A stretch of DNA of 49,709 nucleotides, taken from contig JACMQX010000067.1 of assembly GCA_014376765.1 (NCBI GenBank), forward strand, positions 1 to 49,709, written 5' to 3'. The DNA is from Ramlibacter sp. (GTDB lineage: Bacteria; Pseudomonadota; Gammaproteobacteria; Burkholderiales; Burkholderiaceae_C). Below the pieces are notes generated by a model. It was given only the letters and a program-made list of their open reading frames with translations, was not told where the DNA came from and made no database searches. Numbering within the stretch: the stretch's first letter is position 1; every line of letters starts with the position of its first letter. The position numbers were made by a program, and so were the translations under genes. Below are positions 1,840-11,044 of the stretch, in pieces.

Positions 1840-3570
1840 TCACAAGCCTGCGACCCTGACGTTGAGTACCGCTGCACGGCCCCCATCGACCGCCGCGATG
1901 CATCGGGCCAATGCCGCCTCGAGCTCGCCCGGGTCGGTGACGTACTCGCCGTGCGCGCCGAAGGCCTCACCCACGCGTTCGAAGCGGCGCTCTTCACCAT
2001 CAAGCCGCGCGTGGAATTCGTTGCTTCTGGCGGCGTCCCCATCGGGGTAGACGCGCAGCACGGCTTCCTTCACGGCCTGCCAGCCGCCGTTGTCCAGCAC
2101 CACCGTAAGGATGGGCAGGCCGCTGCGCTGAGCCACTGCGTACACCGAACTCGGCGTGGAGAAGTGAAAGCCACCGTCTCCCACGATCTGGACCACACGC
2201 GAGTCGGGCCGTGCCAGGCGCGCGCCCAGCGCCATGCCGCCGCTGTAACCCAGCCCGCCACCAGCGCAACCAATCAGCGAGCCGGGACACGTGCGCATGA
2301 TTTGCGTGAGGACGGCGGGGGAGTTGCGGATGGCCTCGTTTACAACAATGTCGTCAGGCCCAATTACGCGGTTGATCGCGGCGCAGACTGCTGCCGGTGT
2401 GATGGCTCCTCTTGCATCGGGTTTTGTGGCCGTTTGGGCCGCTGCGCTTTTTCGCGCCTCGCCATCAGCCAGGCATTCAGTCTTTCGCGCTGCAACCCGC
2501 TGCCGCAACGCATCGTCCGCGCTTTGCACAACGACCTCCAGAATCTGCGGCAGCGCGGTGGCGCAGTCGGTCTGCACCCGCAGGTCGGTGGCAAAGCCCC
2601 ACATGGGGAAGTCCTGCTTGAGCGCATCCACATCCATATGGATGAAGCGGGTGTCAGCATTGGGCTTGGTGAACTTGGGCAGCCAGGGGACGTCCACGTC
2701 GAGCAGCAAAACCAGGTCTGCATCGGCCAGGCCCCGCGCGGGGTCGAATCCGCTGAACCAGGGCGAGTCGCGCCTGAGGTTCATGGCGGTGGGCATGAAC
2801 TCGTACACGCGAATGCCGCAGGCTTCCGCCAGGGCCTCCAGCGCGTGCACCGCCGCCGCTTTGCGCCCGAGGTAGGAGGTGATTACGATCGGGTTGCGCG
2901 CCTGCATCAGTGCCTGGGCGATCTCAGCGGCCTGGGCGGGCGCGATGCCGCCGGCAGCGACTGCACCGTAGCGCGCTGCGGGAAAGCTCTGCACCTGCGC
3001 CTCAGGCCACTCTTCATGCAGTGTTTCGCGGGGCAGGGTCAGGAAGACCGGGCCGGGCGGGTCGCTGTGCATCACCGTGTGGCCACGGCGCAGCGCCTCT
3101 TTGGCCAGCACGCCGCTAGGCAGGCTGTACTCCCACTTGGTGTACGGGCGCACGATGCTGGCAATGTCAAAAGGGTCCTGCACGAAATGCACGTAGTTGT
3201 CGCGCGAGCCGGGCAACTCTCCACGCAAGGTGAACGGCGCGCGGCCGGCAATGAGCATGGCTGGCAGACGGGACCTGAACAGGTTGTGCATGCCCATGGC
3301 CGCATTGGCGGTACCCGCGTCCACATGGACCAGCACGCCTTGGCCCCGGCCGGTCGCGGCAGCGAACCCTGCGGCCATGTGGATGGCGACGTTCTCGTGG
3401 GGGCAGAGGATGACCTGGGGTTGCGGGCGGCCTTCAAGAGAGAGCTGCGCCATCGCCTCGATCAGCGCGACGTGGTCTGTGCCCATGTTGGAGAACAGGT
3501 ACTCGATCCCGGCCTCTTGCAGGCCCGTTATGAAGTGCCATGCCGTGGAGCGGCGGGTTTCTTGTTGCAT
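1840..3570 (-). CDS. Thiamine-diphosphate-dependent enzyme (acetolactate synthase/decarboxylase-like)
   Basis: A 576-residue member of the large ThDP enzyme family (acetolactate synthase, benzoylformate and oxalyl-CoA decarboxylase relatives). The N-terminal pyrimidine-binding domain carries the activating glutamate in CPHENVAIHMAAGFA (Glu about 59). The C-terminal domain has the diphosphate/metal motif GDGGFHFSTPSSVYA at about 464, with the closing Asn about 30 residues on (VVLDNGGW). The middle domain is intact. The ATG at 3568-3570 has an AAGGA-type ribosome binding site. It is followed on the same strand by the Bug receptor, so a joint role in taking up and decarboxylating or carboligating a carboxylate is plausible, but the substrate cannot be read from the sequence. 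The intergenic stretch 3571-3737 upstream of it shows no convincing gene. Confidence 0.8.
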   Translation of the reverse strand: MQQETRRSTAWHFITGLQEAGIEYLFSNMGTDHVALIEAMAQLSLEGRPQPQVILCPHENVAIHMAAGFAAATGRGQGVLVHVDAGTANAAMGMHNLFRSRLPAMLIAGRAPFTLRGELPGSRDNYVHFVQDPFDIASIVRPYTKWEYSLPSGVLAKEALRRGHTVMHSDPPGPVFLTLPRETLHEEWPEAQVQSFPAARYGAVAAGGIAPAQAAEIAQALMQARNPIVITSYLGRKAAAVHALEALAEACGIRVYEFMPTAMNLRRDSPWFSGFDPARGLADADLVLLLDVDVPWLPKFTKPNADTRFIHMDVDALKQDFPMWGFATDLRVQTDCATALPQILEVVVQSADDALRQRVAARKTECLADGEARKSAAAQTATKPDARGAITPAAVCAAINRVIGPDDIVVNEAIRNSPAVLTQIMRTCPGSLIGCAGGGLGYSGGMALGARLARPDSRVVQIVGDGGFHFSTPSSVYAVAQRSGLPILTVVLDNGGWQAVKEAVLRVYPDGDAARSNEFHARLDGEERRFERVGEAFGAHGEYVTDPGELEAALARCIAAVDGGRAAVLNVRVAGL

Positions 3571-3737
3571 TCGTTGTCATCCTTTGCTGTTGCGCCCAGG
3601 CTGGGTTAAAGCCGGTGCTGAACATGGTACTGACAATCGGATCGATGACCCCTGCGCCGTAAGCGGAAAACCCAGCCAGTACGATCTCGCTGCGGCCTGG
3701 CTCTCGCGCTTCAGGCTCATGCCGGCGAACGAGGCGC

Positions 3738-3775
3738 CAAAAAGAAAGCCCCGCAAGTGCCTGACATGCGGGGCT
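3738..3775 (-). terminator. Rho-independent terminator, original chromosomal terminator of tRNA-Met
   Basis: A 9-bp perfect stem (AGCCCCGCA at 3747-3755 with TGCGGGGCT at 3767-3775) is followed on the minus strand by TTTCTTTTT. It lies just beyond the orphaned tRNA-Met tail, in the position and orientation expected for the terminator of the tRNA before the mobile element inserted. Confidence 0.75.
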
Positions 3776-3780
3776 GTTCC

Positions 3781-3833
3781 AGATTTTGGTGGCGCTTCAC
3801 GGATTCGAACCGCGGACCTGTGGATTATGATTC
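3781..3833 (-). repeat. Attachment-site repeat, distal copy (orphan 3' part of tRNA-Met)
   Basis: 53 bases identical to 9432-9484. Bases 3787-3833 equal the tRNA-Met 3' part from the anticodon loop to CCA, but the 5' half of the tRNA is absent, so this is not a functional tRNA gene. It marks the far end of the integrated element; recombination with the other copy would release a circle of 5651 bp. Confidence 0.9.
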
Positions 3834-3943
3834 GGGAAGACACTGATAAGCAGAACAAAACAGTACACACGAATGCAGTATCCACGCGGGTTGCAAGCTG
3901 ATCGATTGCTTCCTTTATTGTTCGTTTGTTCTGATTCTTTGCG

Positions 3944-3966
3944 CCGCAGTGCCCCGCCAGTGTCCC
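3944..3966 (+). repeat. Candidate integrase arm-type repeat, left end
   Basis: Two tandem units, AGTGCCCCGCC at 3948-3958 and AGTGTCCC at 3959-3966, preceded by CCGC. A near-identical tandem pair in the same orientation lies at 9345-9367, inside the other end of the element. Tyrosine integrases often bind short tandem arm sites near both element ends; binding here is inferred, not shown. Confidence 0.4.
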
Positions 3967-4000
3967 ATTGAAAGGGGCTGTGTTTAGTTGCGCTGCACTG

Positions 4001-4207
4001 TCACCCCTTGATCGCGTACAGCAGGTGCCACCACCAGCCGGTGCGAGTTTCTACCTTTTGTAAGCACGCCGAATCCGGGAGCTTCAGCTGTACGTTCCAG
4101 CACATGCCGACCTGCATTGCATAGCGCTCGTTTTCGACACGCACCAATGCCGCCGACAGCCAGACGACCAGAAGCACAGCGACAACCAAGGCAACACGTG
4201 TCTTCAC
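4001..4207 (-). CDS. Small single-pass membrane protein of the mobile element
   Basis: A 68-residue product read from a GTG at 4205-4207 that overlaps the stop of the preceding gene (GTGA), suggesting translational coupling. The N-terminus VKTRVALVVAVLLVVWLS forms one strong membrane segment (about residues 4-22); the rest is a short soluble tail with two cysteines (CWNVQLKLPDSAC) and a tryptophan cluster near the end. Size and topology resemble small accessory or entry-exclusion-like proteins of mobile elements, but no family is recognised. It is the last gene of the element before the distal attachment repeat. Confidence 0.55.
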   Translation of the reverse strand: MKTRVALVVAVLLVVWLSAALVRVENERYAMQVGMCWNVQLKLPDSACLQKVETRTGWWWHLLYAIKG

Positions 4208-4428
4208 AGCTTCAACGTGCCCAACAAACTTCGCGCACCTTGCACTTCGGCATTGACCGCCCGTGACAAGTCGCGCAGCGTGGCCCAATGCCCGCCCTTC
4301 CAAGCGTTGCGGGATGCATTCGCCTTCCCTTCAACCGTGCGTGGCCCCGTGGCCTGCTTCCACGGCTGCCAAGTGCGAATCAGCGTTGCCTGTTGCGTCC
4401 TGCGCTCCTGTGTCCAAATAGTCCCCAT
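4204..4428 (-). CDS. Small conserved mobile-element protein with TGPRT-EGKA motif
   Basis: 74 residues with IRTWQPWKQATGPRTVEGKA then SRNAWKGG, a motif familiar from short uncharacterised proteins on proteobacterial plasmids and prophages (typical form TGPRTPEGKARSSRNA..KHG). The basic, glycine-rich core suggests nucleic-acid contact, but no function is established. The first 98 bases overlap the 3' end of the upstream gene in another frame, and its stop overlaps the GTG of the next gene. Because the conserved motif is encoded within the overlap, the gene is likely real despite its weak ribosome binding site. Confidence 0.6.
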   Translation of the reverse strand: MGTIWTQERRTQQATLIRTWQPWKQATGPRTVEGKANASRNAWKGGHWATLRDLSRAVNAEVQGARSLLGTLKL

Positions 4429-4993
4429 GCTGGTGCCCCAATACTTCGTTTTTTTCGATTTGAGAATTGCCCGCGCGCGGGTGCGCCCGGGTGTACTTCG
4501 ACGCGTCGTTTATCACCTGTTGCGGCCCATTTGTAATGTTGGTTTGCTTTACGAAAGCGACAGGACGCGGGTTCTTGATTTCGGCCAGGCTTTCCAGAGT
4601 TAACCGGCATTGAGCTTGCGCCTTGAGCGCCAGCCGCAAGTATGTATCGGCCACGTGTATGCACTCGTCAGCATTCATTGCCGACCGTCTCGCCAAATTA
4701 GTGAATATTGTTTGCAACGCCATTGCCTGCCCGTACAGCATGGACTCGACCGAGCGCAAGTCCCCCGCATGAACACTTTCAAATCCTTCGCGACAGCCCC
4801 TTATCAACTGCGCCAAGTCACTTTCGCCAGCGAACTTGCCCCACGCGTCCATGGCGACGGCGTTCTGGACTGTTGCTGACAAAAGGATTTCCGGTCTTGT
4901 GGCTTTCTCAGTCTCTGACTTGCGCTTCGTCGGAGCGACCGCGGTGCCTGCTGTTTTGAGCTTCAGTCCTGCTTTAGCCTTGAGTGTTGTCAT
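4331..4993 (-). CDS. Conserved hypothetical protein of plasmids/mobile elements
   Basis: 220 residues from the ATG at 4991-4993 (MTTLKAKAGLKLKTAG); an in-frame ATG at 5065 would add 24 residues. The N-terminus is lysine-rich. A central helical part includes MLYGQAMALQTIFTNLARR and ADTYLRLALKAQAQCRLTLE, followed by LAEIKNPRPVAFVKQTNITN and GPQQV, and a low-complexity tail rich in Gly, Ala, His and Asp. The KNP-PVAFVKQ-N--GPQQV stretch is typical of uncharacterised plasmid- and island-borne proteins. It sits between the relaxase and two small genes on the same strand. No enzymatic motif is seen. Confidence 0.65.
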   Translation of the reverse strand: MTTLKAKAGLKLKTAGTAVAPTKRKSETEKATRPEILLSATVQNAVAMDAWGKFAGESDLAQLIRGCREGFESVHAGDLRSVESMLYGQAMALQTIFTNLARRSAMNADECIHVADTYLRLALKAQAQCRLTLESLAEIKNPRPVAFVKQTNITNGPQQVINDASKYTRAHPRAGNSQIEKNEVLGHQHGDYLDTGAQDATGNADSHLAAVEAGHGATHG

Positions 4994-5012
4994 TGCGTAT
5001 TTTCTCAATGCG

Positions 5013-5177
5013 TCATTTGGGCATTTCCCGCCCGGTGCAAAAGGCCCATGGGGAACATAGCTCATAGCGGATCAAGCTGGCAAGCCCCGAGTTACCCACC
5101 GCGTCAGTCGGTACGTCGCAAGCGCCGCCCGCCGCCGTGGATAACTCTGCTTGGTTTGCAATCGGCGTCATGTCCAT
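5013..5177 (-). CDS. Possible small protein overlapping the end of the relaxase gene
   Basis: A 54-residue frame (MDMTPIANQAELSTAAGG...) starts 10 bases before the relaxase stop with GGAAC just upstream, and fills most of the 175-base gap to the next gene. No family is recognised and composition is unremarkable. It may be a translated coupling peptide or a chance frame. Confidence 0.2.
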   Translation of the reverse strand: MDMTPIANQAELSTAAGGACDVPTDAVGNSGLASLIRYELCSPWAFCTGREMPK

Positions 5178-6169
5178 TGTTCCGGTTCCGCGCGGCAATC
5201 GTCTGACCAATCTGCAAAGTCAACGTCAGCACGATCAACAACCCGGTCGTCGTCCTGTACCGGTGGCGCGGCAGGCGCAGGCTTTCTGCGCGCGGCAATG
5301 ACAGGATTGTGGGCGATCCCTACACAGGATAGGGTTTCGACCTTTGGCGTGTGCTGCGCCCCTATAGGGCTTCGCATGTTGGCAAACCCTATAGGCTTTT
5401 CCGGCCTGTTCGATCCCTTGCCCTTGCTGGTCATGATCTGCGCCATGGTTCGGAGTTTTGGCGGATTCGGCTTTGAAACTTCGATGCCAAGCAGGTGCGC
5501 GAATGGCGCAGGATCACGGTCTACGAAGTCGCGCAAAATCGGCCACAGCGCTGACTCTTGCGCCTGATCGTTGCTGGCGCGCAGCGCAGCGATCACAGCC
5601 TGAGCCGTTTCTTCCTTTGCCCGCCCCTGTAGCCTTGCCGGTGCCTTTGCAAGCCCGTAGCGAGCCGCTACAGCAGCGTGGAAGTCGTTTTGAAGGAATT
5701 GCAGCCGTTGCCGGTTGCCGACAAGGTCGCTGCCCTTCATGCGTCCTTCGATCAACGGCAACAGCAGGACATGCATGTGTGGCGCGCTTTCGTCCATGTG
5801 TATGTCAGCCGACAGCATGTTGTCGAACCCGCCGAAATTCCGCGCAACCCATGGCAAGCAATCTTTGAAATAGGACGGCGGATCAACCGGGGTGCCCGGC
5901 GGCAGGCTGAAGACCAATTCCAGCGCCATGACAGCCTTCTTACGGTCCGACCTGATCCCCGCGCCCACCTTCAGGTCTTTGGCCCGTTGTGCGACCGCCT
6001 GTGGCGTTGCAGGACCATGCAGCACGGTGTTCAAGCAAATACGCGCCGCGTCAATGTGACCCGCAGCCCCGTATTCGGCCTGTATCACCCGTTTGTTGTG
6101 CCGACTTGCCGCCAGCACGATCCCCGAGCCGGTCAGCTTTTTAATCCTGAAGAAACCGGGCGCGCTCAT
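5168..6169 (-). CDS. MobV/Pre-type relaxase (mobilization protein)
   Basis: Relaxases nick one strand at oriT and lead it into a recipient during conjugation. This 333-residue protein has SRHNKRVIQAEYG near residues 22-34, matching motif I of MobV/Pre proteins (HNxR, with the catalytic histidine), and HMDESAPHMHVLLLP at 124-138, the metal-binding HxDExxPHxH motif III. The rest is alanine/proline-rich. It is shorter than many family members (often 400-500 residues), lacking a long C-terminal coiled region. The start ATG at 6167-6169 overlaps the stop of the preceding gene (ATGA), so the two are probably translated together. No coupling protein or secretion genes accompany it, which fits mobilization in trans. 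Confidence 0.85.
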   Translation of the reverse strand: MSAPGFFRIKKLTGSGIVLAASRHNKRVIQAEYGAAGHIDAARICLNTVLHGPATPQAVAQRAKDLKVGAGIRSDRKKAVMALELVFSLPPGTPVDPPSYFKDCLPWVARNFGGFDNMLSADIHMDESAPHMHVLLLPLIEGRMKGSDLVGNRQRLQFLQNDFHAAVAARYGLAKAPARLQGRAKEETAQAVIAALRASNDQAQESALWPILRDFVDRDPAPFAHLLGIEVSKPNPPKLRTMAQIMTSKGKGSNRPEKPIGFANMRSPIGAQHTPKVETLSCVGIAHNPVIAARRKPAPAAPPVQDDDRVVDRADVDFADWSDDCRAEPEQWT

Positions 6170-6714
6170 GGTTGCACTCCGTCATTGCTTGCCGCGTCGC
6201 CTTCTTCGATTCTGTCAATCGCACTGGCGAGCAGGTCCGCCGCCACGATGACGGCGCGACTGGTCCATTGACTTCCCCCACGGGTCGAGTGCGTTGTGAG
6301 TTCCTTTGCCAGACCATTCGCCAGCCACCGCGACAGGTTCAACATGACGGCAGTACGAAGTTTCTTGGCTTCGAACATTGCGACTCGGTGCGTATCAATA
6401 TTGGCAAACAGGATCAACTGCGCACCGCCAGCCTTCAACAGCCAGCCGCTGGTTCCATGGCTGTCAAGTTCCAGCACGCAATCTATGGGACCGCCGCGCT
6501 GCGCGCTGTAGTCCTTGCGCCTGGGCTTCAGGTCCAACCCGAAGCGACCGCGCGAAGTAGCGACCCAGTAGTCAACCCCCCGCCGGTCGTCATTGGCATT
6601 TGCCCTCGTCACGCCGATGCAATCGACCACAAGCCGATGACAGGCACGGCGGACCAGGGCATGAGCGTCGTCTGATTCTGAAAATCGAAAGTCTCGGTCA
6701 AAGTCATGAACCAT
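6166..6714 (-). CDS. Relaxase-coupled protein with a possible PD-(D/E)XK nuclease-like core
   Basis: 182 residues from the ATG at 6712-6714, chosen for its AAGGGGA ribosome binding site. The central part DYWVATSRGRFGLDLKPR gives Asp48, then Asp61-Leu-Lys63, the spacing of a D...D-x-K nuclease-like core; it is followed by an Arg/Lys-rich stretch and a beta-rich region (GGAQLILFANIDTHRVAMFE). The C-terminal third is helical. The gene ends in an ATGA overlap with the relaxase, implying a joint role, for instance as an accessory DNA-binding or processing factor at oriT. No named family is recognised; the nuclease fold is inferred from motif spacing only and may instead be a non-catalytic relative. 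Confidence 0.6.
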   Translation of the reverse strand: MVHDFDRDFRFSESDDAHALVRRACHRLVVDCIGVTRANANDDRRGVDYWVATSRGRFGLDLKPRRKDYSAQRGGPIDCVLELDSHGTSGWLLKAGGAQLILFANIDTHRVAMFEAKKLRTAVMLNLSRWLANGLAKELTTHSTRGGSQWTSRAVIVAADLLASAIDRIEEGDAASNDGVQP

Positions 6715-6857
6715 GTGCGTCCCCTTCACAGTCAGGAGCATCAGCACATAAAATTGCTGGTGTCGTCTTGCCAAAGACTAGGAAGGTCAACCGTGTGTGG
6801 AAGCCGGTTGGCCTTTCGCCTATGTAATGCGTCGTGTTTGCCATAGACCGTTCCCCT

Positions 6858-7145
6858 TCAGGCTTGAACCGGCGGGCGACCCGCAAGCCAATTGCCATAC
6901 CGGTGAACGTCAACAAGCACTTTGCGTCCGCGCCGCACGATTGCGCGGTGCGCTGCCAGCCCGTTACCTTCGATCTTCTCGCCGCGTGAGTTGATCCGGT
7001 CGTCCGCCTTAAAAATGTCCATGCGAATCGCGCCGGGTGTCTTGCCTGCGTCGGCATAAACGGACGCAAGTACGGGGACGGTTGCGAGCCACGGCGTTGC
7101 GTGTGCAACAGGTGCCGAATGCACCGTCTGATCGGGGATATTCAT
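6858..7145 (-). CDS. Putative small DNA-binding (excisionase-like) protein
   Basis: 95 residues from the ATG at 7143-7145, with AGGAACC upstream. The C-terminal half contains GLAAHRAIVRRGRKVLVDVHRYGNWLAGR split over residues 62-90; the pattern 'IVRxGRKVLVDVxRYxxWL' is like the second half of short winged-helix, excisionase-like proteins of integrated elements. Gene position fits: it follows the integrase pair and faces a 97-base gap with nested inverted repeats that could be its operator. The first 45 residues are not recognised. An alternative is an accessory relaxosome protein binding oriT. Confidence 0.5.
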   Translation of the reverse strand: MNIPDQTVHSAPVAHATPWLATVPVLASVYADAGKTPGAIRMDIFKADDRINSRGEKIEGNGLAAHRAIVRRGRKVLVDVHRYGNWLAGRPPVQA

Positions 7146-7156
7146 GATGATGGTTC

Positions 7157-7228
7157 CTACTTGGTGGTTCCGGCAATTTGCCGTGAATCCAAGTAGAAGC
7201 AGCTACTTATCAGCTAGCGTGTTAGCTG
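7157..7228. promoter_or_regulatory. Nested inverted repeats: candidate oriT or operator
   Basis: In the 97-base gap between two element genes: an outer pair CTACTTGG (7157-7164) and CCAAGTAG (7189-7196) encloses a perfect palindrome CGGCAA-T-TTGCCG (7171-7183). Next to it CAGCTA (7211-7216) pairs with TAGCTG (7223-7228). Such layered dyads are usual at origins of transfer and at operators of element regulators. There is no U-tract placed for a terminator. Which role applies cannot be decided from sequence. Confidence 0.45.
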
Positions 7229-7242
7229 TAATTCTTTTTCAC

Positions 7243-8037
7243 CTAGTTGCGTGCCGACCACCGGACTCTGGCCCTGGCGACCATTACGGCGAAGCTATGC
7301 CATTGCTGTTCAAACCTGGCGTTCCCGACTAGATACTCGATGTGGCTTCCTGCGCTGCCACCGACGACTTGGACCGTGACAGGTCCGCCGTTTTGATTGA
7401 CTTCAACGCAATTGCTAGCGTACTGATTCCTAAGCCTATTGAAGATATGGATCGCCGCGTTGCTTTCGTTGGCGCTAAGCACGGATCCGATGGCAACTGA
7501 CAATGGTTTGCGCCGATCAGCGTTGGGGCGCTTCAGTGTGCTGACCCATTTGGCGTTATCACTGGTGAAGTCGCCACCGATAGACGCCACTAACAACGGC
7601 AGCCGCCACAATCCGGTGCGAGCCAGATAGCAGTCTCGGTGAACTTCACCAAGCCAACGGTGTGCGTGAAAGTGAAAGACCGTGGCAGATTCGGCAGCAG
7701 GCCCCGCCAATCGTACGCACTCTGCTGCTTTGGTCCCCATGTGCTGGTTCAGCAGGGAAGCGACTTGTTCGACTGACCCCTTTTCAATCTTGCATTTGTT
7801 TCGCAACTTTCTGAGAATGTCGTCGCTGATTTTTTCCTGTAGGTCCAAAATTTCGGCGCGTACTTCTTGAGCCGTGGGCGTGTTTTTGAAATTGAGATGT
7901 TCCCCAGACTTGTTTGGCTCAGGATAAATCAACGAAGCAAGAGCGTTGTACGGCTTGGCTGGCAATTTTTCCAAGGCGATAGCAATGCGCCACGCTTGAT
8001 TCAGCCAGTCGATATCTGGCGCCTTTGACCGTGCCAT
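7243..8037 (-). CDS. Unknown protein translationally coupled to the integrase
   Basis: 264 residues; its ATG at 8035-8037 overlaps the integrase stop codon (TAATG), so it is very likely expressed with the integrase. No family is recognised. The first 110 residues look helical and charged (ILDLQEKISDDILRKLRNKCK), followed by a His-rich patch FHFHAHRWLGEVHRD (about 120-135), and a C-terminal part with VTVQVVGGSAGSHIEYLVG. No signal peptide or membrane segment is seen. Its base composition is clearly more A+T-rich than the relaxase and the chromosome around it, suggesting a separate origin. It could be cargo (for example defence) or an integration/regulation partner; neither is demonstrated. Confidence 0.65.
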   Translation of the reverse strand: MARSKAPDIDWLNQAWRIAIALEKLPAKPYNALASLIYPEPNKSGEHLNFKNTPTAQEVRAEILDLQEKISDDILRKLRNKCKIEKGSVEQVASLLNQHMGTKAAECVRLAGPAAESATVFHFHAHRWLGEVHRDCYLARTGLWRLPLLVASIGGDFTSDNAKWVSTLKRPNADRRKPLSVAIGSVLSANESNAAIHIFNRLRNQYASNCVEVNQNGGPVTVQVVGGSAGSHIEYLVGNARFEQQWHSFAVMVARARVRWSARN

Positions 8038-9101
8038 TAGATGCCAAGCCTTTTGGCAAGACCGCCAGCAAGTTCAATCGTCCGCTGTGGTGACAGGTGC
8101 GAATAGCGCATGGTCATTGCCAGCGTTTTGTGGCCGAGCAGCTTTGCCATTTCCAACTGCGACACGCCGGACATAGCCATGTAGGACGCGCAGGTGTGGC
8201 GCAGATCGTGCCAGTGGAAGTCGGTGATCTTCGCCGCAGCCAGCGCCGCAGTCCATGGCGCGCGCAGGTCTGCTACCGCGTCTTTTTCCTTTGCTCGTGG
8301 TCCCGCCGGGAACAGCCGGTCGTCGTCGATCTTGCGGACCTTCGCCCGAGCCTTGAGCAGATCGAAGGCTTCCCCCACGATTGGCAGGACGCGCATGTTG
8401 CCGTTCTTCGTGTCCAACAATGTCGCGGTCTGACCCTTCAGGTCAATCAACTTCCATGTCAGGTTCATGATTTCTGACTGCCGCCCACCGGTCGAGAGCG
8501 ACAGCAAGACCGCAAGCAACAAATGCTCATGCTTCGAAGCACGGCAAGCCTTCAGCAGTTCTGGCACTTCGTTTTCTGTCAGGTAGCGGACGCGACCGTC
8601 CGACTCTTTGAACTTGCGAACCCGAACCATGGGGTTTTCTTCAAGCCACTCAAGTTCCTTGACCCCGTAAGTCAGCGCAGACGACAGCGCCGCCATGGCG
8701 CGATTTACGTCAGCCCCAGACCTTTCCCCTTCACCGCGCTCTTTTGGCGTCGCCTTGAGCGTATCCCGGTGTTTCTTGATCGTCTGCGCGTTGAGTTCCG
8801 ACAACAGCATGTGGCCGACCGCGCCGGTCCAGTACTTGAGTCGCAACTTGACCGCGCGCGCGCTCTTGAGTGATGGCACAGCGTCTTTTTCGTAGGCTTC
8901 GATCAATTCCTTGACCGTGTGCCGCTTTGCCGCACCGAAATAGCGGTTGTTCTTAATTTCGGTTTCTGTCTGCGCTGCCCAAGTCTTCGCGTCGGTCAGC
9001 CGTTCGAAGGTGGCCGACACAGGTTCATGGCCGCGCAGCCGAATCTTGACGCGATAGCTGGTCGATCCGTCTTCGCCTTGCCGCTTTTCGATTGCTGCCA
9101 T
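8037..9101 (-). CDS. int: Tyrosine-family site-specific integrase
   Basis: 354 residues. The N-terminal part (about 1-60) is a beta-rich arm-binding domain; residues 62-155 form the SAM-like core-binding domain; the catalytic domain follows with Arg207 (STGGRQSEI), Lys232 region, His298-Arg301 (HDLRHTCASY), His324 (LLGHKT) and the nucleophile Tyr333 (MRYSHL). All catalytic residues are present, so the enzyme should be active. The gene lies 330 bases from the complete tRNA-Met, into whose anticodon-loop-to-3'-end segment the element is inserted. The ATG at 9099-9101 has a modest GGGA upstream. The stop overlaps the next gene's start. Confidence 0.93.
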   Translation of the reverse strand: MAAIEKRQGEDGSTSYRVKIRLRGHEPVSATFERLTDAKTWAAQTETEIKNNRYFGAAKRHTVKELIEAYEKDAVPSLKSARAVKLRLKYWTGAVGHMLLSELNAQTIKKHRDTLKATPKERGEGERSGADVNRAMAALSSALTYGVKELEWLEENPMVRVRKFKESDGRVRYLTENEVPELLKACRASKHEHLLLAVLLSLSTGGRQSEIMNLTWKLIDLKGQTATLLDTKNGNMRVLPIVGEAFDLLKARAKVRKIDDDRLFPAGPRAKEKDAVADLRAPWTAALAAAKITDFHWHDLRHTCASYMAMSGVSQLEMAKLLGHKTLAMTMRYSHLSPQRTIELAGGLAKRLGI

Positions 9102-9375
9102 TTTGTTCCCCGTTGAAGCACTGGGAACAGTCTAGAACGACACAGTAAAAAATGCAACAGTGGAACACTAATCCACAGCAATAAATCAGTAAGCCATTGA
9201 ATTCATTGATTTATATTCAAGTGAATTCAGGCAATGGGACAAATTTGGGCCAGCTGGGTCATTTTTTGGGGCTTTTTCGGAGTCGCGCGCGCGTGCGCGT
9301 ATCGCTCCCGTAATTTACGGTGATCTTGACGTGCGACTTTTCTGCCGCACTGTCCCGCCAGTGCCCCGCGAGTCG
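9102..9375. other. Non-coding stretch upstream of the integrase gene
   Basis: No gene is seen. It is A+T-rich next to the integrase and holds two copies of the 8-base palindrome TGAATTCA (9198-9205 and 9222-9229, 24 bases apart) plus the inverted pair TAAATCA (9182-9188) and TGATTTA (9207-9213). These could be operator or excisionase sites in the integrase promoter region. Nearer the tRNA are the tandem arm-type repeats (9345-9367). Confidence 0.4.
9345..9367 (+). repeat. Candidate integrase arm-type repeat, right end
   Basis: ACTGTCCCGCC (9349-9359) followed by AGTGCCCC (9360-9367), preceded by CCGC. It matches 3944-3966 with three to four differences in 23 bases and has the same orientation. 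Presence inside both ends of the element, and nowhere else noticed in the window, suggests integrase arm sites. Confidence 0.4.
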
Positions 9376-9415
9376 GAAAACAAAAAAGCCTGCTACCGAG
9401 TTGATAGCAGGCTTT
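9376..9415 (-). terminator. Rho-independent terminator supplied by the mobile element behind tRNA-Met
   Basis: An 11-bp stem (AAAGCCTGCTA at 9385-9395 with TAGCAGGCTTT at 9405-9415) is followed on the minus strand by TTTTTTGTTTT. It ends tRNA-Met transcription before the integrase operon. It lies inside the element, whereas the older terminator is stranded at 3738-3775. Confidence 0.8.
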
Positions 9416-9431
9416 CAAGGCTGTACGGGGG

Positions 9432-9484
9432 AGATTTTGGTGGCGCTTCACGGATTCGAACCGCGGACCTGTGGATTATGATTC
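9432..9484 (-). repeat. Attachment-site repeat, tRNA-proximal copy
   Basis: 53 bases identical to 3781-3833. It runs from the anticodon loop of tRNA-Met through the T-arm and CCA to 6 bases past the gene. Crossing over in the anticodon-loop end of a tRNA is usual for tyrosine integrases. After integration this copy restores a full tRNA. Confidence 0.9.
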
Positions 9485-9514
9485 CATCGCTCTAACCGAC
9501 TGAGCTAAAGCGCC
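9438..9514 (-). tRNA. tRNA-Met (CAU), elongator type
   Basis: 77 bases with encoded CCA. The acceptor stem GGCGCTT pairs with AAGCGCC; the D-arm (AGCTCAGTCGGTTAGAGC) and T-arm (CCGCGGTTCGAATCCGTGA region) are normal; the anticodon loop ATCATAA shows CAU. The acceptor starts with a paired G, unlike initiator tRNA, so it is elongator Met; a CAU tRNA-Ile whose C is modified to lysidine cannot be fully excluded. Its 3' part belongs to the inserted mobile element. Confidence 0.92.
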
Positions 9515-9528
9515 TTGCGAAGCCCGCG

Positions 9529-9534
9529 ATTATA
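9529..9534 (-). promoter_or_regulatory. -10 box of the tRNA-Met promoter
   Basis: A perfect TATAAT on the minus strand ends 14 bases before the tRNA 5' end, followed by a GC-rich CGCGGGC discriminator typical of stable-RNA promoters. The -35 region falls at the very end of the upstream VWA gene and is not a clear consensus. Confidence 0.6.
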
Positions 9535-9553
9535 GCGGAGCAAAATCCGCGCT

Positions 9554-11044
9554 TCACTGCCCCCGCGCCAATTTCCCCAACTCGTCGCCCACCAGCCTCA
9601 CGATCAGCCTGTCCAGGGTGTCCACTGAATAGTTCTTCACGTCATGCACCGTCTCGCGCCCCGGGCCGCTGGCGGGGTTGCGGGCCTGGTCATAGGTCAG
9701 GAACACGAACTTGCCGCCGGTGTACTGCGCCATCTGCCGCTGGATGTACTCGCCCTGCTTGTCCAGGCCGCTGGCGCCCACGCTGAAGATCTTGATGCCC
9801 TTGCCCAGCGCGGCCATCATGTCGTCGTCGTACTGCGGGCCGCCGTAGTCCAGGTGGGGCGGTGCGTCGGCAATCAGCACGATCAGGCGGGTCGCGCCGT
9901 CACCGCGCCAGCTGAGGCGGTGGACGGTCTCATGCAGGGCCTCATTCATCGCCTCGGGGTAGTCGCCACCGCCGGCGGCTTGCAAGGCGTTGAGCACGCC
10001 CTGGAAGGCGCTCAGGTCATTGGTCAGGTCGTGGCTGCGCACCAGGAACTGGTCGTGCCTGTCCCGGTAGGCCACCAGGCCAAAGCACAGGTCGGGCCGG
10101 CTGGGCAGCTGCGCCACGTCCGCGGCGATGGTGTTGACCGTGGCCTTGAGCTTGGCGATTTCATCGTCCATCGAGCCTGTGGCGTCGATCAGGAAGACCA
10201 GGTCGAGCTTGGCCCTGACGTCGGCACTGCGCGCGTCCAGCACCACCTCCACGGCGCTCTTTTGCCCGCGCTTGAGGTAACCCTGCGCCTGCCTGCCGTC
10301 CTTGCGCACGGCCACGTCGTAGACGCTGGCGTGGGACGGGTCAAACGCGTCGGGGTGCAGCCAGACCTGACCCGCAGCGTCGGTGCGCGCCCACATCGCG
10401 TAGCCGCGTGGCGACTGCACGGCGACTTCGGCATCGGCCACACTGCGGCCGCGTGCGTCTTTCACCTCGAGCAGGTAGCGCTCGCGGATGTCGCGCGCGC
10501 GGTGCTCGACGCGGGTGCGGTTGCGAAAGGCCAGGTAGCTGGTGAAGTCGGCGTTGTCGTCCACCATGCCGGCTGTGACCGCTTCCATGCGGGGGCGCTG
10601 GTTCTGCGTGGGCTCGGGCCAGGGGGCGGCCGAGCCGGTAGCGGGCGCGGCCTTGGCCAACGCGGAAGGCGATGCAGGCGCGGCGGATTCCCGCTCGGCG
10701 GCCGGCCTGTCGGCCCTCATGCGATCTTCGTCACGCGCGCCATGTGACGGGCGGGAAGGCGAGTGACGGGGCAAGTAAGAAGGCGCGGGGGACGGCCTGT
10801 TCTGCGCTACCGGCAGCCCGGGGATCTCGCGCGTCTCGATGGGCCGGGCGCAGCTGGTGGCCGACGGTGCCTGGAAGTTGGGCCGCACCGTTACTTGCGC
10901 CGGTGCGGGCCAGCTCACGGGCTTGGCCTCAGGCCATCTCGGCTGCGCCTGGCCAGCAAACGGTTGCGCCGTTGCCGAGCCTGCGCTCAGCAACAGCTGC
11001 ACGCTGAGCAGCAGGGCGATCTTGCGGGGAGTGGGTGTGTTCAT
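9554..11044 (-). CDS. Secreted VWA-domain protein
   Basis: 496 residues from the ATG at 11042-11044, which has AGGAGG six bases upstream. A signal peptide (about 1-27, ending SATAQP) is followed by a long Pro/Ala-rich segment to about 150. Residues 190-275 are a beta-rich, carboxypeptidase-regulatory-like module (VKDARGRSVADAEVAVQSP), and 280-450 are a von Willebrand A domain with the metal-site motif DATGSM at about 287 and a later conserved Asp in IVLIADAPPHLD. VWA domains mediate metal-dependent protein binding; the partner is unknown. The gene is divergent from an ECF sigma/anti-sigma pair, so it may be its target or sensor. Export to the periplasm or surface is likely. Confidence 0.8.
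   Translation of the reverse strand: MNTPTPRKIALLLSVQLLLSAGSATAQPFAGQAQPRWPEAKPVSWPAPAQVTVRPNFQAPSATSCARPIETREIPGLPVAQNRPSPAPSYLPRHSPSRPSHGARDEDRMRADRPAAERESAAPASPSALAKAAPATGSAAPWPEPTQNQRPRMEAVTAGMVDDNADFTSYLAFRNRTRVEHRARDIRERYLLEVKDARGRSVADAEVAVQSPRGYAMWARTDAAGQVWLHPDAFDPSHASVYDVAVRKDGRQAQGYLKRGQKSAVEVVLDARSADVRAKLDLVFLIDATGSMDDEIAKLKATVNTIAADVAQLPSRPDLCFGLVAYRDRHDQFLVRSHDLTNDLSAFQGVLNALQAAGGGDYPEAMNEALHETVHRLSWRGDGATRLIVLIADAPPHLDYGGPQYDDDMMAALGKGIKIFSVGASGLDKQGEYIQRQMAQYTGGKFVFLTYDQARNPASGPGRETVHDVKNYSVDTLDRLIVRLVGDELGKLARGQ

Follow-up and report, generated by a model that had tools for sequence, protein, structure and literature searches.

The element and its genes

The window analysed here is the whole 49,709-nucleotide stretch of Ramlibacter DNA. 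Within it lies a small integrated element of 5.7 kb, a mobilizable island with a MobV relaxase that is inserted in a tRNA-Met gene. Its components are as follows.

3781..3833, plus strand: att repeat marking the element's distal boundary, a 53-bp perfect direct repeat found by blastn self-comparison
4331..5065, minus strand: 244-aa protein, function not assigned
5168..6169, minus strand: MobV (Mob_Pre) relaxase, 333 aa, with the motifs HNKR and HMDESAPHMH
6166..6720, minus strand: 184-aa protein, function not assigned; ATG start, with the ORF readable from 6774
6858..7145, minus strand: 95-aa predicted winged-helix protein, a proposed excisionase (RDF) or regulator
7243..8037, minus strand: 264-aa protein, function not assigned
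8037..9101, minus strand: tyrosine integrase, 354 aa (Pfam Phage_integrase, E 1.3e-29)
9432..9484, plus strand: att repeat over the 3′ part of tRNA-Met, a 53-bp perfect direct repeat found by blastn self-comparison
9438-9514, minus strand: tRNA-Met

Read along the minus strand between the att repeats, the order is integrase, 264-aa protein, a gap of 97 bases, 95-aa protein, 184-aa protein, MobV relaxase and 244-aa protein. The relaxase matches the Pfam Mob_Pre profile with E 5.1e-19 (69.3 bits, cut-off 25.5) and the NCBIfam MobV profile with E 1.3e-21, where its 77.6 bits fall under the model cut-off of 100; its relative in locus L021 reaches 103.8 bits against the same NCBIfam model. The translation contains HxxR (as HNKR) and HxDExxPHUH (as HMDESAPHMH), the MobV motifs as stated in PMC5090054, and this places the protein among the MobV relaxases. 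Profile scans of seven element proteins gave no T4SS or transfer-pore match, returning only Mob_Pre, integrase domains and two sub-threshold matches.

The element has the anatomy of an integrative mobilizable element (IME) with its own relaxase. With the canonical IMEs it shares the integrase, the att repeats in a tRNA gene, the relaxase and the absence of a transfer-pore match among the scanned proteins. It is unlike them in its host, as the relevant part of a 2017 review places none of the IMEs described in Proteobacteria in the canonical, relaxase-encoding category (PMC5704250). Homologues of the 244-aa protein sit just past mob in L026 and in L029/L038 (42–45% identity). The related MobV genes of loci L021–L028 are found with different kinds of integrase and with small HTH ORFs resembling AlpA, as judged by eye, and the integration and mobilization modules therefore appear to have been swapped.

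The 95-aa protein has no sequence-family match in profile scans that included Pfam and NCBIfam, no tblastn match in phages or plasmids, and no homologous locus in viral_contigs. Its apparent matches in L031 and L032 probably reflect fortuitous reading frames that overlie other genes. An AF2 model made with a four-row alignment is a small winged helix with a mean pLDDT of 83.9, compared with a poor prediction (pLDDT 50) when no alignment was supplied. Using VIA-align the model gives Z values of 5.9 to Pukovnik Xis (4j2n) and 5.8 to the RdfS excisionase (8dgl); terminase and BldC/MerR domains score level with these excisionases, and at a Z of about 6 the likeness can reflect a common arrangement, as can any value below 8. 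The best Foldseek match has E 0.24. On this model the protein may resemble the winged-helix excisionase/RDF proteins (Pukovnik Xis, RdfS) in fold, and it is likewise encoded by a small gene near the integrase gene; it is unlike them in having no sequence-family match. We regard it as a predicted Xis/MerR-like winged helix, and likely an excisionase (RDF) or regulator.

Nested inverted repeats upstream of the 95-aa gene

The gap between the 95-aa and 264-aa ORFs covers 7146-7242, and its 97 bases are densely occupied by inverted repeats.

7157-7164/7189-7196: outer 8-bp dyad CTACTTGG/CCAAGTAG, enclosing the 13-base palindrome
7171-7183: perfect 13-base palindrome CGGCAAtTTGCCG
7191-7208: extra dyad AAGTAG/CTACTT, sharing bases with other dyads
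7200-7205/7223-7228: extra dyad CAGCTA/TAGCTG, sharing bases with other dyads
7211-7216/7223-7228, plus strand: 6-bp dyad CAGCTA/TAGCTG with the 6-nt loop GCGTGT

The first-pass annotation had described an 8-bp dyad round a perfect 13-base palindrome, with a 6-bp dyad alongside, in a gap of 97 bases, and we find every one of these where it had placed them; the two extra dyads were absent from it. Its view that such a density exceeds chance is borne out by computation. An 8-bp dyad enclosing a 6-bp dyad arose in none of 5000 dinucleotide shuffles of the gap, and a total of five dyads was reached in just one of 5000. Across the 49.7 kb the nested-plus-neighbour pattern is found in 26 of 49,612 sliding 97-base windows, where overlapping windows at one place are counted separately. 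Compared with 200 shuffles, the RNA fold has z scores of −3.58 (7130-7242, minus strand) and −3.19 (7146-7242, plus strand), and the DNA fold has z scores of −5.46 (plus strand) and −3.65 (minus strand). The RNA fold of the shorter segment 7130-7200 gives z −3.81.

On the minus strand, the GGAA that resembles a Shine-Dalgarno sequence for the 95-aa gene overlaps the right arm of the outer dyad. The dyad at 7211-7228 scores as terminator-like on the plus strand, and no plus-strand gene that it might serve was identified there. An Rfam scan of 3000-10000 returned only the tRNA and two sub-threshold matches overlapping it, so the gap is not a known RNA. No sigma-70-like promoter was found in 7000-7450.

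A total of 897 genome searches, made on samples that overlap, yielded a single close relative of the 95-aa gene, in locus L004 (genome G027). There the integrase is 62% identical to that of the window, the positional counterpart of the 264-aa protein 28%, the 95-aa protein 79%, the 184-aa protein 74% and the relaxase 66%. The sequence ACGGCAAANNGCCGGAA (7168-7184, minus strand) recurs unaltered in L004, where the 95-aa gene starts at the same distance from it, and both sequences have a GGAA-N10-GGAA pair at −26 and −12 from the start codon. The outer arms are of other letters in L004 and still pair (CTTTTTA/TAAAAAG), while the position of the small dyad is taken by GGCTAGCTGGCTAGCC, where a dyad is present and the GTG|T nick core (the bar marking the nick) is absent. 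The earlier reading had tied function at this site to conservation of the dyads in related elements; in L004 this holds for the sequence of the palindrome, whereas the outer and small dyads have changed their letters though they remain pairable.

Beyond L004 the motif is not seen. ACGGCAAANNGCCGGAA has no match within two mismatches in 16 other MobV loci, 12 of which hold at least 1 kb upstream of mob and four less, and the palindrome is lacking near the distant 95-aa homologues in L003 and L043. The shorter motif CGGCAAANNGCCG matches exactly in L028 (4372, minus) and has ten other exact or single-mismatch places outside the gap of L004; with two mismatches it occurs in the window at chance level (42 found, 42 expected). 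When the gap was compared with 19 loci by blastn, two matches of 13 bases emerged (E 0.17), one in L040 and one in L004 outside its gap; the comparison is too insensitive to count because it missed L004's own gap.

The role of the gap

What does the gap do? We put at about 0.7 the probability that the 7157-7228 dyads act in cis to regulate the 95-aa gene and those that follow it, with the oriT of the element lying separately, where mob ends. The first-pass annotation had left the choice between oriT and operator, and it is the second of these that is better supported, on the comparison of two sequences. An operator and leader of the 95-aa gene fits better because the palindrome and the GGAA pair are both kept in L004, with their spacing from the start codon unchanged; moreover, the arms pair in both sequences, and the product of the gene is predicted to be an Xis/MerR-like winged helix. 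We infer that the 95-aa protein would regulate its own production by binding a short way upstream of its start codon, at the palindrome, at the GGAA repeats with their 14-bp spacing, or at both. A second layer is possible in read-through transcripts, where folding of the outer dyad may conceal the site at which ribosomes bind for the 95-aa gene.

It could be argued that this second layer is all there is, the gap being an RNA leader whose folding in read-through transcripts hides the ribosome-binding site, with no protein operator. The geometry is suggestive, as the right arm of the outer dyad overlaps the GGAA at −12. Moreover the full leader leaves the Shine-Dalgarno sequence unpaired with a probability of 0.197 (a value as low arises in 12 of 300 shuffles of the upstream sequence), compared with 0.605 once the left arm is removed, and the z score of −3.81 for 7130-7200 is in keeping with this. 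Yet the effect is weak in L004, where hiding of the Shine-Dalgarno sequence is not significant (54 of 300 shuffles are as low) and the leader folds no better than its shuffles (RNA z −1.29 and +0.21; DNA z −0.86 and −1.20). Furthermore the palindrome and the GGAA pair are kept as sequence and not merely as pairing, which suggests protein binding. We consider an RNA leader acting by itself rather unlikely. A functionless accident of a short spacer seems to us less probable still: there is one close relative only, and two of its dyads differ in sequence, but nesting was seen in 0 of 5000 shuffles and both palindrome and GGAA spacing are kept in L004.

There remains the oriT half of the first-pass proposal. 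The small dyad holds TAGCGTGTTA at 7215-7224 (plus strand), one mismatch from the nick site of pMV158, TAGTGTG|TTA, which lies in the loop of an inverted repeat (PMC5090054, PMC5863519, in the parts concerned with the origin). In an oriT of the pMV158/MOBV1 type the relaxase would nick TAGCGTG|TTA in the loop of CAGCTA[GCGTGT]TAGCTG on the plus strand, and the neighbouring dyads would correspond to IR1/IR3. TAGCGTGTTA is the sole site in the 49.7 kb within one mismatch of TAGTGTGTTA, where chance would give 0.40 over the full length of the window, and its core sits in a 6-nt dyad loop beside overlapping alternative dyads, as the same parts of those two papers have it for pMV158 (PMC5863519, PMC5090054). 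Against this, the corresponding position in L004, whose relaxase is 66% identical, reads GGCTAGCTGGCTAGCC and lacks the GTG|T core. The core is on the plus strand and mob on the minus strand, whereas in pMV158 the nicked strand is the coding strand of mob; the gap thus presents a nick-like core in an inverted-repeat loop, and neither the strand of mob nor conservation. The 95-aa gene is unmatched in all eight MobV loci L021–L028, each of which has at least 2.6 kb upstream, and a better site, described below, follows the relaxase in betaproteobacterial genomes. That the gap is the oriT is in our estimation most improbable, and we judge the core in TAGCGTGTTA, striking as it is, to be a pMV158 look-alike.

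The gap also contains TAGCGT, which resembles the CS-6 motif of ssoA. A single-strand origin at this place was rejected, as it would be on the strand that would not transfer, and TAGCGT is absent from the gap of L004.

A recurrent hairpin at the 3′ end of the relaxase gene

The gap dyads look like ordinary regulatory anatomy, and following them led to a testable candidate for the oriT. The first-pass annotation had seen no other evident oriT in the element; this is contradicted by a hairpin about 1.8 kb from the gap dyads that recurs beside MobV genes.

5307-5342, minus strand: proposed oriT hairpin AAACCCTATCCTGTGTAGGG, CCCTA[TCCTGTG]TAGGG, in frame inside the 3′ end of the relaxase gene
5360..5395, minus strand: pair of CCTATAGGG palindromes, located upstream of the hairpin, with which its left arm could pair instead

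Listing of inverted repeats around mob in the relatives gives CCTATAGG-type repeats at the 3′ end of the gene, and the block that is shared there consists of the palindrome or palindromes CCTATAGGG followed by AAACCCTATCCTGTGTAGGG. Within the window CCTATCCTGTGTAGG occurs once, even with two mismatches allowed. The stem of the window's hairpin is short, with five pairs and then a mismatch. Its left arm can pair either upstream, with the second half of the palindrome, or downstream across the loop, and these two pairings are mutually exclusive.

How widespread is this hairpin? The exact 22-base pattern AAASCCTATCCTGTGTAGGSWT is found in 10 stretches of genome_contigs (a set of 84,980 genomes), all betaproteobacterial by title, where our own estimate of the chance expectation is below one; among the ten, L042 repeats L004 and L038 repeats L029. 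Nine of them are beside a MobV gene. The tenth, L039 1-8000 (Duganella sp. Leaf126), has no MobV match in the locus; its hairpin is next to a transposase ORF of IS66-like appearance, and further on come ORFs resembling a reverse transcriptase (608 aa) and a helicase (805 aa), all assigned by eye. The pattern is absent from viral_contigs, and the homologous-locus search made with the relaxase returned nothing from genome_contigs or viral_contigs. No plasmid carrying the site was found by blastn (one search gave only E ≥ 2 and another no matches), and five Gram-negative MobV plasmids (L074–L078, the last of which ends just before mob) contain neither the 3′ core nor the TAGNGNGTTA core.

A covariance model of 36 positions, built from 16 rows (with L022 in imperfect register) and run on 399 genomes of the order, gave eight matches at E ≤ 6e-8. 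Seven of these each lie where a MobV gene ends, on its 3′ side, and the eighth is beside a MobV remnant. The latter, L049 (G410:C1:334508-334543), has an intact 3′ hairpin beside a 43-residue remnant of a MobV C-terminus and an integrase-like ORF (by eye); it is possibly a derivative without a relaxase, which could be open to mobilization in trans. The remaining 23 of the 31 matches listed lie above E 6e-8, and at the 22 of these 23 for which loci were available tblastn found no MobV. Five of the weak matches were read (L051, L052, L056, L058 and L062), and four of these resemble stem-plus-T-run terminators.

In the other direction, a protein search of a sample from this order located 16 MobV places, seven with a strong covariance match and nine without. 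All six places where the relaxase has E ≤ 1.8e-44 have a strong match. L026 (relaxase E 6e-33) has none, and exhibits the same two-way pairing in other letters; L027 and L028 have at most a look-alike, picked by eye. The window's own genome contains a second MobV locus, L024 (G000:C89:2733-3602), whose relaxase is 39% identical and which carries a 3′ hairpin too (E 5.3e-8).

Among the 15 MobV loci that gave a strong hit, nine have the core in frame inside mob and six have it after the stop codon, by 27 to 122 bases; one of these six (L038/L029) is a broken mob gene. Sharing among these 15 is biased because eight were found through the motif itself. The hairpin is nonetheless present in all seven loci that were found by relaxase homology or synteny alone (the window, L004 and L021–L025). 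Two in-frame loci, L033 and L040, read the upstream palindrome in another frame, giving KPYRV rather than KPIGF, and the constraint is therefore on the DNA.

The pairing is also retained. A complement of the left arm is present upstream in 16 of 20 loci, where only 0–16 of 500 mononucleotide shuffles are as good; it was missed in L025, L049, L027 and L028 within the 67 bases upstream that were tested, the palindrome of L049 lying further upstream. In the 16-row alignment 85.2% of 128 cells are paired, falling to 52% or less when the partner is slid. Covariation is modest, with three pairs changed on both sides and 13 of 500 shuffles as high. We also compared all 11-mers between 3.0 kb before and 2.5 kb after the start of the mob match. 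Of 54 that are common to at least five of the 15 loci, 52 fall for the most part in the 3′ zone, which leaves a single tRNA-like word together with its complement. For an upstream site this comparison is a test in 11 of the 15 loci alone, those with at least 1 kb of upstream DNA, because the other four hold little. The recurrence of the hairpin, its position and its partner repeats are thus established by computation.

The hairpin as a candidate oriT

The hairpin at 5307-5342 (minus strand), together with the partner palindromes up to 5395, is the likely oriT candidate of the element. It is kept beside the relaxase gene, although not at every MobV locus (7 of 16), and inverted repeats surround a nick-type core. 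The loop region contains TATCCTG|T, fitting the MOBP nick consensus (C/T)ATCCTG(C/T) as given in the section of PMC3772185 on nick regions, and also TGTG|T as in pMV158. Nicking at this site, its strand, its exact position and the ensuing transfer are what we infer from these sequences. The proposed nick lies at G5325|T5324 (CCTG|T), with G5323|T5322 (TGTG|T) as the alternative. We favour CCTG|T because the sequence of L022 (CCTGTGAA) breaks TGTG|T and not CCTG, in this one locus. After excision the relaxase would nick the coding strand of mob in the loop CCCTA[TCCTG|TG]TAGGG; the 244-aa gene would enter the recipient first and the relaxase gene last, and transfer would run through the conjugation machine of a helper. 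In L029 a homologue of the 244-aa gene starts just past the 3′ site.

A conserved hairpin next to mob might instead be a single-strand origin (sso) or an operator of mob. There is a precedent in position, as the pMV158-type module of IMESag-rpsI has an ssoA on the downstream side of mob (PMC5090054, in its description of that module). However, the loop holds the nick-type core ATCCTG (PMC3772185, as for the consensus above), and the two mutually exclusive pairings are like those of the pMV158 oriT. Furthermore, apart from the tRNA-like word no other exact 11-mer common to at least five of the 15 loci was found around mob, four of the 15 being short upstream. We therefore think an sso or operator quite unlikely, and continue with the hairpin as the putative oriT.

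Relation to known systems

The proposed site has a good deal in common with those of pMV158/MOBV1 (MobM) and IMESag-rpsI (MobSag). The relaxases are all of the MobV type, and, as far as the descriptions of the two origins in PMC5863519 and PMC5090054 go, the proposed nick is likewise in an inverted-repeat loop on the coding strand of mob, the left arm likewise pairs upstream to give exclusive hairpins, and the outer arm is likewise a direct repeat. The differences are in position and sequence. Here the proposed site is at the 3′ end of mob and theirs is upstream; the arms here are AAACCCTA/TAGGG(T/A)T with the loop TCCTGTG, where theirs has GTGTG|T; and here the relaxase gene would enter the recipient last. 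With the nick region of the MOBP family (IncP/VirD2) the site shares a core, TATCCTG|T, that fits the consensus, and an inverted repeat upstream, as the account of these regions in PMC3772185 has it. It is unlike MOBP in that the relaxase here matches Mob_Pre/MobV profiles only, and in that the core is also enclosed by a hairpin.

A site of the upstream kind is seen in another genome of the same order. In L016 (G338:C74) a pMV158-like hairpin at 1064-1102 lies 63 bases upstream of a 330-aa MobV-like ORF, with ccttttt[CGTAG]aaaaagg overlapping aaaaggtgta[GTGAGT]tacacctttt; the protein match that brought in this locus is weak (E 3.6e-4). Both layouts of oriT therefore seem to occur within the same order.

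A literature search for CCTATCCTGTGTAGG gave no mention among the matches listed, subscription papers and figures lying outside its coverage, and in the literature on a MobV oriT at or near the relaxase gene the 3′ site was not brought up among the matches listed. The site may already be known, as subscription papers and figures lay outside the search.

On balance we lean towards the existence of a betaproteobacterial clade of MobV IMEs in which the oriT is located at the 3′ end of the relaxase gene, often within the coding sequence, and comprises a hairpin able to switch between two pairings, with TATCCTG|T as its MOBP-type nick core. If this is correct, it would be a MobV oriT with a different position, a different transfer polarity in which the relaxase gene comes last, and a nick core resembling the one used by a separate family of relaxases. 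Relaxase-less derivatives that keep the site, such as L049 and L039, would then be mobilizable in trans. The 36-position model finds the 3′ site in whole genomes, and would let such relaxase-less hitchhikers be spotted. If the nick core is indeed TATCCTG|T, the site would bear upon the evolution of nick specificity between relaxase families.
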